The position numbers were made by a program, and so were the translations under genes. From IMG/VR virus record IMGVR_UViG_3300045952_000032, positions 1 to 20,041 of that record: a DNA stretch of 20,041 bases, one strand, 5' to 3'. This DNA is from a virus. The notes beneath the pieces were generated by a model. That model did not search any database. It was not told the origin of the DNA and saw nothing but the letters and a program-made list of their open reading frames with translations. Positions 6,165-14,397 of this stretch are shown piece after piece; within the stretch, counting starts at the first letter, position 1; each line of letters opens with the position of its first letter.

Positions 6165-6818
6165 CTACGTTCGGTAGCGAGTCCGCATTCTCCGAACTGG
6201 AGTGCGCTGACCTCGCTTGGTTAGTGTTCCGACAAGGGTGTCATACCACATCTCTGCGTCGGAGTTCAGAGTTGAGGCACGGGTGTAATTCTCACCCAGG
6301 ACTGCGGCTGCGATTGATGCGGTTCTCGACTCCAGAAACAGTTCCGAATTGAGGATTTGAATCGGGACGTTCACGTTGTCAATGGCCGTGAGACCCTTCA
6401 TGAACCGGATGTAAACGTCTCGATTCGTCGTGGCACCAGGGAATTTCAACTGCTCTTCCCGCCATGCCCAGACTCGAAGCTGGTCTGTCTGCTGAAAGGT
6501 GGGCTCCCAGTTTCGCTCCTCCATACCGACGAAGTCCGAGATTGGCCCGTTCATAGGGCCTTCCCTCAGCTCGATTGGGTAGAGAAGACCCGCTGGGAGC
6601 CCAGACCCATCACCGAGGAACGTGATTCCAGCAAACACAGGAACTCGGTCAGCAACTTCCTTCGTCGGCCCCATTCCAGCCCTCGCGAGCCGAATCTGGA
6701 GTTCACGATAGGCTTTGTTGAGCAGGGGAAGTAGAGCCTGGTCCGAGTAGACCAACCCTTGCGGGTCGTTCAGGAGAGGCTTGACCCCAACGAGAATCTG
6801 TGACGCTAGAACTGCCAC
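6165..6818 (-). CDS. Head-tail adaptor (head completion) protein (217 aa)
   Basis: The protein is mainly helical. Residues 1-50 include LVGVKPLLNDPQGLVYSD, LLPLLNKAYRELQIRLARAG, the usual opening of ring-forming adaptors of the P22 gp4 / T7 gp11 type (a helix, a loop, then AY.EL...L...G). A middle beta segment (LLYPIELREG) and a C-terminal helix pair (LFLESRTASIAAAVLGENYTRA) complete the pattern. It would form a ring under the portal and connect to the nozzle coded next. The start is GTG at 6818 with GAGGTG 5 nt upstream, overlapping nothing but 1 nt from the stop of the upstream gene. The C-terminus is very basic (RTPVRRMRTRYRT), possibly for DNA contact. Confidence 0.65.
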   Translation of the reverse strand: MAVLASQILVGVKPLLNDPQGLVYSDQALLPLLNKAYRELQIRLARAGMGPTKEVADRVPVFAGITFLGDGSGLPAGLLYPIELREGPMNGPISDFVGMEERNWEPTFQQTDQLRVWAWREEQLKFPGATTNRDVYIRFMKGLTAIDNVNVPIQILNSELFLESRTASIAAAVLGENYTRASTLNSDAEMWYDTLVGTLTKRGQRTPVRRMRTRYRT

Positions 6819-6819
6819 G

Positions 6820-7047
6820 TTACACCTCTCCGCCTTTCGCTATGGCGTCGGTGCAAGCCCACTTTGCCTCGAGAATCGCCCTGAGAGCCGCCGACCGATG
6901 TGCAGAATCGGGGACGTTCAAGATGACTTCCTTCGCGAGGTCGATGAACTTGACCGTGAGCGCGTCGATGAGTGCCTTCTGTGCATCGCCGATTGGGACG
7001 GAAGAAAAAGTTCTCTCGACGTTCTCCATCGTGATTTTACCCGGCAT
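6820..7047 (-). CDS. Acb2/Tad1 hairpin-domain-like protein; candidate cyclic-nucleotide sponge (75 aa)
   Basis: The protein is a predicted helical hairpin: helix one about residues 20-44, turn VPDS at 45-48, helix two 49-71. The turn and second helix (VPDSAHRSAALRAILEAKWACTDAIA) follow the pattern of the small Acb2/Tad1 hairpin family, where (C/V)PDS.ER..AL..LEEA..WA..AIAR is usual. Members of that family bind cyclic di/trinucleotides or cyclic ADP-ribose variants and block CBASS or Thoeris signalling. Others have no tested role. The N-terminal 19 residues do not match anything I know. The start at 7047 has a strong GGAGGT site 8 nt upstream and overlaps the previous gene by 11 nt. It lies beside a DUF5662-like gene. 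Sponge activity is inference; family resemblance is moderate to good. Confidence 0.6.
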   Translation of the reverse strand: MPGKITMENVERTFSSVPIGDAQKALIDALTVKFIDLAKEVILNVPDSAHRSAALRAILEAKWACTDAIAKGGEV

Positions 7048-7504
7048 CTTTGATTACCTCCACCTCGGCCTCCAACCATTTCGCTGTGTTCTCGAACGCC
7101 CGCTGGAGGACTGCCGGGTCGATCGTCAGCGGCCTTACCGTCCCAGACCTTGCTTTTCCCGCCATCACGCAGTCGGCGATGAAGTCGAGGACGTCGATGA
7201 GATTGACATCTTCGGGAACACCGTCGGCTTCGTTGAGGTGATGCCGGTTCAACTTGCGATGCGTGTCCCACCACTCCGTCTGCTTGAAACCCGTGACGAA
7301 GTCTCGATGGAACCCGTCGATGTCTGAAATCTTGTCCGGATCGTGGGCAGTCGCAGCGTCCAACAGCTTCTCCACAAAAAAGCGGAGAGCGTCCTGAACG
7401 TCCTGGATGTGCGCGATGGAAGCCTCCAGAAGCTGGTCACGAGTAACCTTGGTGTAATCACAGGTCCGGATGTCAGCAACCTTGCTCTCTCGAATACGAA
7501 GCAT
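7037..7504 (-). CDS. DUF5662-like His/Asp-rich phage protein (155 aa)
   Basis: An all-helical protein with a possible metal site: H54-D55 in TAHDPDKIS, H82, R83, H88 and H89 in THRKLNRHHL, and D104 and D111 in LIDVLDFIADCVMAG. The order HD..K, then H.....HH, then a D..ADW/C helix resembles DUF5662 proteins and, more loosely, the HD fold. The family is frequent in phages but has no established role that I know of. The ATG at 7504 has AGGAG six nt upstream, with the site overlapping TAG of a 7514-area repeat element. The gene overlaps the hairpin-domain gene by 11 nt. A phosphohydrolase or nucleotide-handling role is possible but not shown. Confidence 0.6.
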   Translation of the reverse strand: MLRIRESKVADIRTCDYTKVTRDQLLEASIAHIQDVQDALRFFVEKLLDAATAHDPDKISDIDGFHRDFVTGFKQTEWWDTHRKLNRHHLNEADGVPEDVNLIDVLDFIADCVMAGKARSGTVRPLTIDPAVLQRAFENTAKWLEAEVEVIKDAG

Positions 7505-7532: not shown

Positions 7533-8252
7533 CTATTTCGCCGCCGGAGCTTGTGGATCTTTTCTCTCTGTGATCGGCGCGAGCTTCTCGATCATGCCAG
7601 CACCGAGAAACTCCTTCTTGTATCTCTCCTCATCGACGATACCGTGGCAGGTCGGGCAGATGCAGGCGAGCGGATGAATCATCGAGAAGCAGAACCTGCA
7701 CTTCGAGAGTGCTTCCTCGATACGGTCCTTGACCATCCACTCTCGATTGGTCTGGCCCAGAACCGTCGCCGCGGTCCTCTGGAGTTCGGTGATGAACTTG
7801 TGCTTCCGGTATTGCGCCCAATCATCGTCAGCCATGACGAGGAGGCGCTCATACCAGGTTTTCTGGAGTGCGTTCAAGCCGTCGAGGAGGCCCTTGTGCT
7901 GACTGAGAAAGGCTTTTTTCCCGTTCTCGTCGTTGAGGTATTCGCCCCAGACCCATCCCAGACCAGGCTCCGCGATTCCAGCCTCGTAGCAGATCATCGC
8001 GCACTTGTGGTCGTTGCAAATGGAGGCGGCCACGAGGTCGGAGGGGTCCGGCACGATGAGGCGAGGACGCTCGGAATCGAGGTAGACGGGATGCGTGCAC
8101 CGCTCGACCGGGAACAGCGTGAAATCACCGGGAGCCGTGTAGGGGATTCGAAAATCCGATGGCACGAGTCCCGGCTTCTTCTCCCACAAGGGGTAAGGGA
8201 GAATACTCACAACCGTCGAAATGTCATTACTTCTTGGCGCTGATGATGGCAT
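7533..8252 (-). CDS. Zinc-ribbon-containing hypothetical protein (239 aa)
   Basis: Residues about 185-202 carry CRFCFSMIHPLACICPTC: C185, C188, then C197, C199 and C202, a likely treble-clef or zinc-ribbon metal site near the C-terminus. The N-terminal 110 residues include many Pro, Tyr and Trp and a Cys-His pair (ERCTHPVYL and ICNDHKCAMIC) that could give a second metal site. The middle (120-180) is helical. The ATG overlaps the upstream gene by 26 nt. It lies between the capsid-associated genes and the accessory pair. I do not recognise the family. A DNA- or protein-binding adaptor on the virion is possible, but so is a packaged protein. Confidence 0.6.
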   Translation of the reverse strand: MPSSAPRSNDISTVVSILPYPLWEKKPGLVPSDFRIPYTAPGDFTLFPVERCTHPVYLDSERPRLIVPDPSDLVAASICNDHKCAMICYEAGIAEPGLGWVWGEYLNDENGKKAFLSQHKGLLDGLNALQKTWYERLLVMADDDWAQYRKHKFITELQRTAATVLGQTNREWMVKDRIEEALSKCRFCFSMIHPLACICPTCHGIVDEERYKKEFLGAGMIEKLAPITERKDPQAPAAK

Positions 8253-11571: not shown

Positions 11572-11796
11572 CTATCGAACGGTTACGTTTGCGTTTCCTG
11601 TCGTGCAACGAATGCACTTGACGGTGCCACGGACCCCGGTTGTCTCCGCTCCCGTCAGTGCAGCGAAAGTGGAGCCGTCGTGCGAGCCTTCGATGGCAAC
11701 GCTCGACCGAATATCGCACGAGGCAGCCGGAAGGTTGTAGACCACGTTCTGAAGAATCTGCGTGGTCGTCCCGAGACTCAATGTTTGAAATGGCAT
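11572..11796 (-). CDS. Small protein between portal and scaffold (74 aa)
   Basis: A short Thr/Ala/Ser/Val-rich protein with three Cys (SCDIRSS, KCIRCTTG) and a probable beta structure. No membrane segment or known motif is visible. The ATG at 11796 is 3 nt after the portal stop, with AAAGGAG upstream inside the portal's last codons, and its own stop TAG merges with the scaffold ribosome site. The strong initiation signals on both sides support a real gene. A small capsid decoration, plug or head protein is plausible, but I do not recognise it. Confidence 0.6.
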   Translation of the reverse strand: MPFQTLSLGTTTQILQNVVYNLPAASCDIRSSVAIEGSHDGSTFAALTGAETTGVRGTVKCIRCTTGNANVTVR

Positions 11797-11799
11797 TTT

Positions 11800-14397
11800 C
11801 TACTCCTTTGGAGGTTTCTTCTTTTTCTCTCCATCCTCGCCCTCTTCCTCATCGGGAGCAGCAGCTTCCGCCATCGTGACGAACTTCTGATGCTCCTGCA
11901 TGTGGAGGAGAACATTGAGGTAGGCGCCGGGATTTTCCTTCTTGTATTGCAAGCCGACATCAGACTTGAGCCACGCCTGACACGTAATCATTTCGACCTG
12001 ATGATTGTCCAGCGTAGGCTCGATACGAACGGAGGACGTCAGCATCATCCCAGGTCCCATCCCCGGAGCCGGACCACCGGGGGCTTGATCTCCAGGCATT
12101 CCTGGACTCATCGGTGGTGCCTCCCCCTCAGGCGGGCCTTCGGGCGCGGGAAGAGCGGGCCCTTCTCCACCTCCCGGCTGACCTTGAGGAGGAGGCATCA
12201 TCGGTGAGGGAGCCGGAACTGGCTCCGCGAGGATCATTTCCCCGATTTCGACGAGCTGCTTGTTGCGGTCATCATCACCAGGGATGTAAAGCTCAGGGAC
12301 CCCGATGATAAGAGCAATCAAGCCAGCGTTCTCCGGGTGCCGCAGGACTTCACCAACATCCTCGTTACCTGACTGGAATAGCTGGAGAATCATGTCGCGC
12401 TTTTGCGCCCACGAGATTGGGAAGCTCTCGTTCACATCCGGCTCAACCTCCCCGACCTTGCCAGTGAGGTGAATTTTCCGTATCCAGATGTTGATGTAGG
12501 TCGCGCCGCGTTTCTCGACGTATTTCTCGTCCTCCAGCATGTTGATGGCAAAGCTGCGGACAGCCTTGCTCAACATCACCGACCACCAAATCTTTACGAT
12601 TTTCCACGTAATCTGGAGCCGTTGGAGCGCCTGGGCTCGAGACATTTCATATTCTTTGGCGGTGCCGGAGCCTCCTTGTATAGCTCCTCCAAATACTGTC
12701 GGTAGAGCACCAGAGACGAACTGGCCGACTCGTTCAAGTCGGTTAAGGAACTTGTCAATCTCCTGAGAGATGGAAGACGTTTTGGCCTCGAAGAAGCCCT
12801 CGCCGAGAGACCTTCCAGCAGGCGCTTTTGCTGGAGAAACTTGTCCAGGTCGAGCTTCAGACCGGCTATACGCGTCGAAATCCAATACATCCGGGTCTGC
12901 GTAGAGTTCAGGGATTCCAAACTCGATGCCTTCGAGCGTGAGGTTCCAGCCTTCATTGGTCATGTCCTGGATGGGGACTACAGCGGTGCCGGTTGATTCG
13001 GCGTGGAGGGACTCCGAAAGAGGATGCTCGGTAAAAGTCCAGTGGTCGTTCATGACGTCAGGGACGCCCTCGACCACGAGGTCACGGTTGATGATGACTA
13101 CGTAACATCCGTTAGGATAAAGAGACTTGAGCTCTTGAATCTCAGCATCGCGGGTTCCCACACCAAGGACGTTGTAGGCCCAGGGAGCGAGCCAGCATCT
13201 CCGCGTGGTGCAGAGGTCGGTGGCAACGTCTCCCTTATACATGATGTTCGTTCGCATGGAACGATCAAATGTGTCGAGATCAATGAGTGGCTGAATTCGC
13301 TCTGCGATCTCGGGGTAGATGTCCTGGAGCTTGGCATAGTGCTCCTCAGTTTCGAGGATGAGGTAGGGCAGGTCCTCCTTCTTCGTCGCCCAAGGAGAAA
13401 TCTTGACGTTCAGGGGTCCGTAGACCTCCAAACATTCTCGGGATTTCGGAATCTGGTTGTAGCCGGAGATTCGCGGAACAACCTCCTCGAAGTCATCCGA
13501 CTCGGGCATGTTCTCGTATCCGCACTGCGGACACTGTTGCAGCCCAATAGGATTGTTCGCCGCGGGAGGCATCGAAGGTGGAGGAGCTGCCGGAGGAGCA
13601 GAGGGAGGATTCGGGTCTGGAGGAAGGTTCGGATCTTCGTTCGGAATCGGTTCTTCCTCACCGACCGGCGCCATCCCACCCGCCGGAGCCATCGGAGACT
13701 CCTCGAGGGGAGCAGCGGAGATTTCGTCAGCACCCAGAGAATACCCACAGTTCGCACAGTAGTATTCTCTCGTTACGACCTGGTGGTCGCGAACGATTGG
13801 CTTCTCGTAGACGCCGTATTTTCCGCTTGCGCGATTTTCGTTGTATCCGAAGACGACGCCCTGATTGTAAAGGATGTAGAGGGCTTTCATGAACAGAAGC
13901 TCGGCGTAATTGTGCTTCTGTATCAGCATCCCAATCTTCGTGTAGGCTTTCGCCGTCTGAATGTCGTCAGGATCTTCGGCGTTATCGGGGATGAAAGGCA
14001 CTGTTGGGAGCGCGCTTGACATCGCCGCGATGATGACCTCGCCGTATGCCCTGTAGATGTTGATGATTTTGGCATACAAAGCGGGGTCGATGTCGCTCTG
14101 AGGATCTTCCTCCTTGATTTGGTCAGGAGTGCGCCAGTCGTAGGCGAAATCGGACCACCAGATGTATTGGATGTTGTCCCAATAGCACATCTGCTTCCGC
14201 CACTTCTTGATGAGGCGGTCTCGGGAGAAGCGATCGTGCTTTTCGAGGTGGTCGATGATGGAATGCAGGTTTTTGGCGACTTCAGAGTCGCAGAAGTGCT
14301 CCTCCTCGACAGACGGAGGCTCGACAGGCTCCGGAGTCAAAGCGAGAGCTTCGTCTTCCGGTGCAACTGGAGGCTGTTCGAGGGTTGGAGGGAACAT
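11800..14397 (-). CDS. Portal protein with split zinc ribbon (865 aa)
   Basis: The dodecameric DNA-entry ring protein, judged by size, position before the scaffold and portal-type sequence such as WRTPDQIKEE..., YRAYGEVIIAAMSSALP, WNLTLEGIEFGIPELY and the helix rich in MSRAQALQRLQITWKIVKIW. It is much longer than P22 portal (725 aa). Residues 214-217 (CANC) and 289-292 (CPQC) form two CxxC knuckles split by about 70 residues of Pro/Ala/Glu-rich linker, an apparently interrupted zinc ribbon. The C-terminal 150 residues include a second Pro/Gly/Met-rich run and a Lys/Glu-rich end. The start overlaps the upstream stop (TAATG). The linkers look disordered and could protrude from the ring. Confidence 0.85.
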   Translation of the reverse strand: MFPPTLEQPPVAPEDEALALTPEPVEPPSVEEEHFCDSEVAKNLHSIIDHLEKHDRFSRDRLIKKWRKQMCYWDNIQYIWWSDFAYDWRTPDQIKEEDPQSDIDPALYAKIINIYRAYGEVIIAAMSSALPTVPFIPDNAEDPDDIQTAKAYTKIGMLIQKHNYAELLFMKALYILYNQGVVFGYNENRASGKYGVYEKPIVRDHQVVTREYYCANCGYSLGADEISAAPLEESPMAPAGGMAPVGEEEPIPNEDPNLPPDPNPPSAPPAAPPPSMPPAANNPIGLQQCPQCGYENMPESDDFEEVVPRISGYNQIPKSRECLEVYGPLNVKISPWATKKEDLPYLILETEEHYAKLQDIYPEIAERIQPLIDLDTFDRSMRTNIMYKGDVATDLCTTRRCWLAPWAYNVLGVGTRDAEIQELKSLYPNGCYVVIINRDLVVEGVPDVMNDHWTFTEHPLSESLHAESTGTAVVPIQDMTNEGWNLTLEGIEFGIPELYADPDVLDFDAYSRSEARPGQVSPAKAPAGRSLGEGFFEAKTSSISQEIDKFLNRLERVGQFVSGALPTVFGGAIQGGSGTAKEYEMSRAQALQRLQITWKIVKIWWSVMLSKAVRSFAINMLEDEKYVEKRGATYINIWIRKIHLTGKVGEVEPDVNESFPISWAQKRDMILQLFQSGNEDVGEVLRHPENAGLIALIIGVPELYIPGDDDRNKQLVEIGEMILAEPVPAPSPMMPPPQGQPGGGEGPALPAPEGPPEGEAPPMSPGMPGDQAPGGPAPGMGPGMMLTSSVRIEPTLDNHQVEMITCQAWLKSDVGLQYKKENPGAYLNVLLHMQEHQKFVTMAEAAAPDEEEGEDGEKKKKPPKE

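Follow-up and report, generated by a model that had tools for sequence, protein, structure and literature searches.

A 20,041-nt fragment of the genome of an uncultivated tailed phage (the whole stretch analysed, hereafter the window) carries, in its head-tail gene cluster, a functional gene for a 75-residue protein that is very probably homologous to the Acb2/Tad1 hairpin. In sister phages, a recognised Acb2-type gene is found at the same position. The best overall explanation, in which we place slightly more than even confidence, is that it encodes an Acb2-like sponge from an accessory slot within the head operon, with a ligand that is probably unlike that of standard Acb2. Below, A designates proteins of the Acb2/Tad1 hairpin family (PF24729), B the divergent lineage of the window protein, B′ the related proteins encoded next to A in other phages, and C the family phrog_1761. 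The features of the locus are as follows.

6165–6818, minus strand: conserved 217-aa gene, downstream edge of the slot
6820–7047, minus strand: divergent Acb2/Tad1-type hairpin gene (B lineage), 75 aa, stop codon included
6838–6903, minus strand: long helix 2, residues 49–70 (AF2 model)
6904–6915, minus strand: VPDS turn, residues 45–48 (AF2 model and alignment)
6916–6987, minus strand: long helix 1, residues 21–44 (AF2 model)
7037–7504, minus strand: 155-aa accessory gene in the slot, weak DUF5662-like match
7056–7061, minus strand: Shine-Dalgarno sequence GGAGGT, 8 nt 5′ of the ATG (sequence and duplex energy)
7533–8252, minus strand: conserved 239-aa gene, upstream edge of the variable slot (alignment A5)

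A functional gene in the head-tail cluster

The product of the minus-strand ORF at 6820–7047 is MPGKITMENVERTFSSVPIGDAQKALIDALTVKFIDLAKEVILNVPDSAHRSAALRAILEAKWACTDAIAKGGEV; translation of the plus strand over the same positions gives a different sequence. The terminase of the window is at most about 34% identical to any in the phage-record collection that we searched. A preliminary description had placed the gene in a head-tail cluster and credited it with a strong ribosome site, and both statements hold. The surrounding genes include terL, a major-head-protein match and tail-protein matches (PHROG), and the duplex of the Shine-Dalgarno sequence with the anti-Shine-Dalgarno has an energy of −10.6 kcal/mol, which ranks second among the 15 operon genes tested. 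We found an ortholog in an IMG/VR contig (L001) that is 67% identical to the window protein and is flanked by the same two conserved genes. Substitutions between the two genes are distributed 14/17/45 over the three codon positions, with a dN/dS of about 0.11, and the window gene is therefore a functional protein-coding gene under purifying selection.

Homology to the Acb2/Tad1 hairpin

The kinship is not obvious by direct sequence search. The Pfam model PF24729 (Acb2_Tad1_hairpin) gave no match to the window protein at E up to 1, and none to the L001 ortholog or to B′ at E up to 10; direct scans with Pfam, NCBIfam and PADLOC returned nothing for the window protein, which stands outside PF24729 as Pfam formally delimits it. 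Sequence searches of the PDB with the window protein, with a two-member profile and with a six-member B profile recovered no Acb2 or Tad1, and a mixed profile that includes A-type rows (A3) recovered Acb2 homolog 43, T4 Vs.4 and, weakly, Tad1. Scans of bacterial genomes with the window protein and the B profile found no match, nor did tblastn of B′ against isolate phages.

Deeper profile tests support homology. The PHROG scan matched phrog_1454 to window residues 6–71 at E 4e-4. Since the PF24729 protein gp10 of Curtobacterium phage Sunfish matches both PF24729 and phrog_1454 at E 1e-10, phrog_1454 can be equated with the Acb2/Tad1 hairpin family. A seed HMM built from six PF24729-type proteins was run against 6,391 six-frame ORFs from the loci, and beyond PF24729-type proteins it matched the window ORF and its ortholog and nothing else (E about 1e-4). 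The window protein scored 20.8 bits with this model, against a maximum of 7.4 bits over about 1,800 scored shuffles and −1.5 bits for the reversed window sequence. Alignment of the B profile (six sequences) to A with hhalign gave a score of 38.5 (E 6e-7); column permutation, repeated 60 times, gave at most 17.5, and reversing the alignment gave 14.4. A second profile-profile comparison of B with A gave E 6.6e-6 over 63 columns.

The preliminary description had been based on a VPDS turn and a LEA.WA..AIA-like helix, and both are present in the protein (...NVPDSAHRSAALRAILEAKWACTDAIAKGGEV). Its 19 N-terminal residues, which had been taken to be novel, have a counterpart in the family, residues 9–20 aligning with the N-terminal segment of PF24729; the N-terminus is not an added module. 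The segment is conserved in the B lineage (NVE..F) but lacks the Y-H pair of PF24729.

The AF2 model of the window protein (pLDDT 88), whose input alignment held many A-type rows that may have steered it, predicts a short helix at residues 10–15 and long helices at residues 21–44 and 49–70. The Acb2 protomer likewise consists of a short helix and two long helices (PMC12043709). Foldseek with the window model, a predicted monomer, returned no Acb2 among its matches, and Foldseek and VIA-align, the latter run over 75 chains preselected by Foldseek, yielded common helical arrangements only. For the A-type protein from the slot of locus L100, the top Foldseek match was T4 Vs.4:cGAMP (7uq2), with probability 0.99.

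Conserved residues and the ligand

Alignment A4 comprises 27 A-type rows, the window protein and its ortholog, and is dominated by A. Conservation of at least 90% is seen at 11 positions of this alignment, of which seven are changed in the window protein (Y16S, H17V, R31T, R49A, T56R, E59L and W64A) and Q23, A38, S48 and A70 are kept, as are P46 and A54, which are invariant in A4. Neither residue of the N-terminal Y-H pair is left in the window protein or in L001; B′ proteins carry an aromatic and another residue there. In Acb2, an N-terminal tyrosine contacts cyclic dinucleotides. With seven of the 11 conserved positions changed, the YH motif included, binding of cyclic nucleotides should not be assumed, and because the conserved residues are mostly replaced, the ligand of the window protein, if any, is probably not the one bound by standard Acb2. 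The kinship proposed in the preliminary description is upheld by the HMM and profile evidence, the AF2 architecture and the slot described below, but not by the PF24729 scan or by the conserved residues, most of which have been replaced.

An accessory slot shared with related phages

The strongest evidence for the Acb2/Tad1 idea, and one that is independent of sequence scores, is the slot that the window shares with its relatives. A scan for the downstream 217-aa gene retrieved 26 loci, and we compared slots among close relatives that are 67–76% identical in this gene and in which the slot follows a conserved gene of ~230 aa. The slot holds A alone in L006/L094 (PF24729, E 1.2e-12), B alone in L001/L095 and L104, and B′ followed directly by A in seven loci (L096, L097 and L099–L103, at about 2564–2999). 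In L098 it holds a 63-aa hydrophobic, small membrane-type ORF, and in more distant relatives it contains an HNH-type ORF (L008/L105) or is empty. B′ proteins (for example L100, 2568–2777) are 31–33% identical to the window protein and have the motifs NVE..F and NVP.S..R..AL in common with it. In the L100/L099 pair, A is the faster-evolving of the two genes (dN 0.22 vs 0.06 for B′).

The window slot contains B together with the 155-aa DUF5662-like ORF, which overlaps the start of the hairpin gene by 11 nt and was not found in the same slot among the relatives examined. This ORF has HD/HH motifs (AHDPDK, NRHH) and is possibly a metal-dependent hydrolase. A distant relative whose slot is empty (G017, the contig of L119) has a hairpin-family gene elsewhere, at 12893–13105 (E 2.5e-19). 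In the window itself, a 74-aa ORF after the portal gene (11572–11796, minus strand) resembles by eye a 76-aa protein (L100, 2218–2448) that is found in the slot region of L099–L104 (TQI-type start, IRCTTAxAxVT end).

A link to phrog_1761

The window protein also matches phrog_1761 (PHROG, E 8e-5, residues 33–64). The hhalign score of B with C is 52.9, next to the 38.5 of A with B and 31.5 for A with C (PF24729 against phrog_1761, permuted maximum 14.4); permuted maxima for the three comparisons range from 14 to 18. In searches over 13,631 ORFs, the B HMM recovered 83 ORFs in C loci from E 7e-9 and A members from E 2e-5, and the C HMM found the window protein at E 5e-7. These profile comparisons suggest that the B lineage links PF24729 to phrog_1761 and lies closer to the latter; the placement of B in a tree of A, B and C, which has few columns, is not firm.

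Phrog_1761 is very common in phages, with at least 560 confirmed matches among those listed. Its consensus, in a family annotated as "hypothetical protein", is FFAYAHLPPHLQ...LPRNPERTVALRKLLEAKDAAVRA or FFAYAHLPPHLQ...PRNPERTVALRKLLEAKDAAVRA (L135–L214). The N-terminal FFAYxHLPxHLQ motif of phrog_1761 is absent from the window protein, which reads FSSVPIGDAQ. Among the neighbours sampled for both C and A are terminase, portal, scaffold and capsid genes, and the window gene is thus placed as is usual for this group. In a hypothetical protein of Erwinia phage phB78 (L013, 1186–1620), a P-loop-like N-terminus (GDVGSGKSA) is fused to the phrog_1761 hairpin.

Proposed function and alternatives

We propose that the window protein is a small helical hairpin, probably oligomeric, from a lineage that has diverged within the Acb2/Tad1-hairpin superfamily. 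It would be produced alongside the capsid proteins, when defences that sense the capsid can be set off, and in an Acb2-like manner it would sequester the signal nucleotide of a defence system and leave the effector inactive. Co-expression with the capsid fits defences of this kind, since the Thoeris protein ThsB1 recognises a major head protein (PMC12043709) and mutants of an acb2-deleted phage that escape CBASS carry their changes in the capsid gene (PMC10419184). Whether the protein is a signal sponge with altered specificity is, in our estimation, evenly balanced.

The gene could instead encode a small accessory of morphogenesis or packaging, such as a head assembly factor, that is a hairpin by descent and does not bind signal nucleotides. 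Its position between head and tail genes, the frequent proximity of phrog_1761 relatives to terminase, portal and capsid genes and the failure to retain the residues of the known ligand family are all consistent with such a role. We nevertheless regard it as unlikely: slot content varies (empty, HNH, membrane-type ORF, A, B or B with A), so assembly can proceed without the gene, and PF24729 proteins also adjoin scaffold, portal and terminase genes.

The direct adjacency of B′ and A in seven loci, and the arrangement in L100, where the start codon of A directly follows the stop of B′ and the ribosome site of A lies within the end of B′, evoke a partner of the A-type protein, joined with it in mixed oligomers, that in the window phage has since become independent. 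This is quite improbable, because B occurs without A in L001, L104 and the window, A occurs without B in L006, and the longer contigs of L001, L006 and L104, which are possibly incomplete, contain no further A- or B-type copy. That the protein is a decayed sponge whose function has been lost, as the missing motif residues might suggest, is contradicted by the selection pattern (dN/dS of about 0.11 with L001), the intact frame and the strong ribosome site, and we give it almost no credence.

The reading of the window protein as an Acb2-like sponge can be extended. B and phrog_1761 might together constitute a large unrecognised branch of Acb2-related sponges in phage head operons, the tandem B and A genes encoding either a pair of sponges that differ in specificity or one mixed oligomer; we advance this tentatively, with less confidence than the reading of the window protein itself. 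Should B and phrog_1761 proteins capture signal nucleotides, a counter-defence role would be assigned to a phage "hypothetical protein" that is very common, and the tandem loci would represent phages stacking differently targeted sponges next to their capsid genes, themselves among the triggers of such defences. If they do not, the result still marks the reach of the Acb2/Tad1 hairpin beyond its Pfam model.

Comparison with known systems

The window protein resembles Acb2 (anti-CBASS 2; T4 Vs.4, gp24 of PaMx33 and PaMx41; PF24729) in size, in profile homology over residues 9–74 and in its predicted short N-terminal helix and two long helices, and PF24729 proteins fill the same slot in sister phages. 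It differs from Acb2 in lying below Pfam detection and in having lost the Y-H motif along with the majority of the other conserved residues. With Tad1 (Thoeris anti-defence 1) it has in common the C-terminal helical hairpin, which by name is the same Pfam domain. Tad1, however, has an N-terminal beta-sheet domain and chains of 123–138 aa, whereas the 75-aa window protein is modelled without strands and with 20 residues before helix 1. Sunfish gp10, annotated as a cyclic nucleotide sequestering protein, is its best informatively annotated tblastn match in isolate phages (35% over 51 aa, E 0.03) and, unlike the window protein, passes PF24729. Phrog_1761 and phrog_5120 keep an aromatic/H-L-P N-terminus that the window protein does not, but they are the closest large family by profile and are encoded among similar genes.
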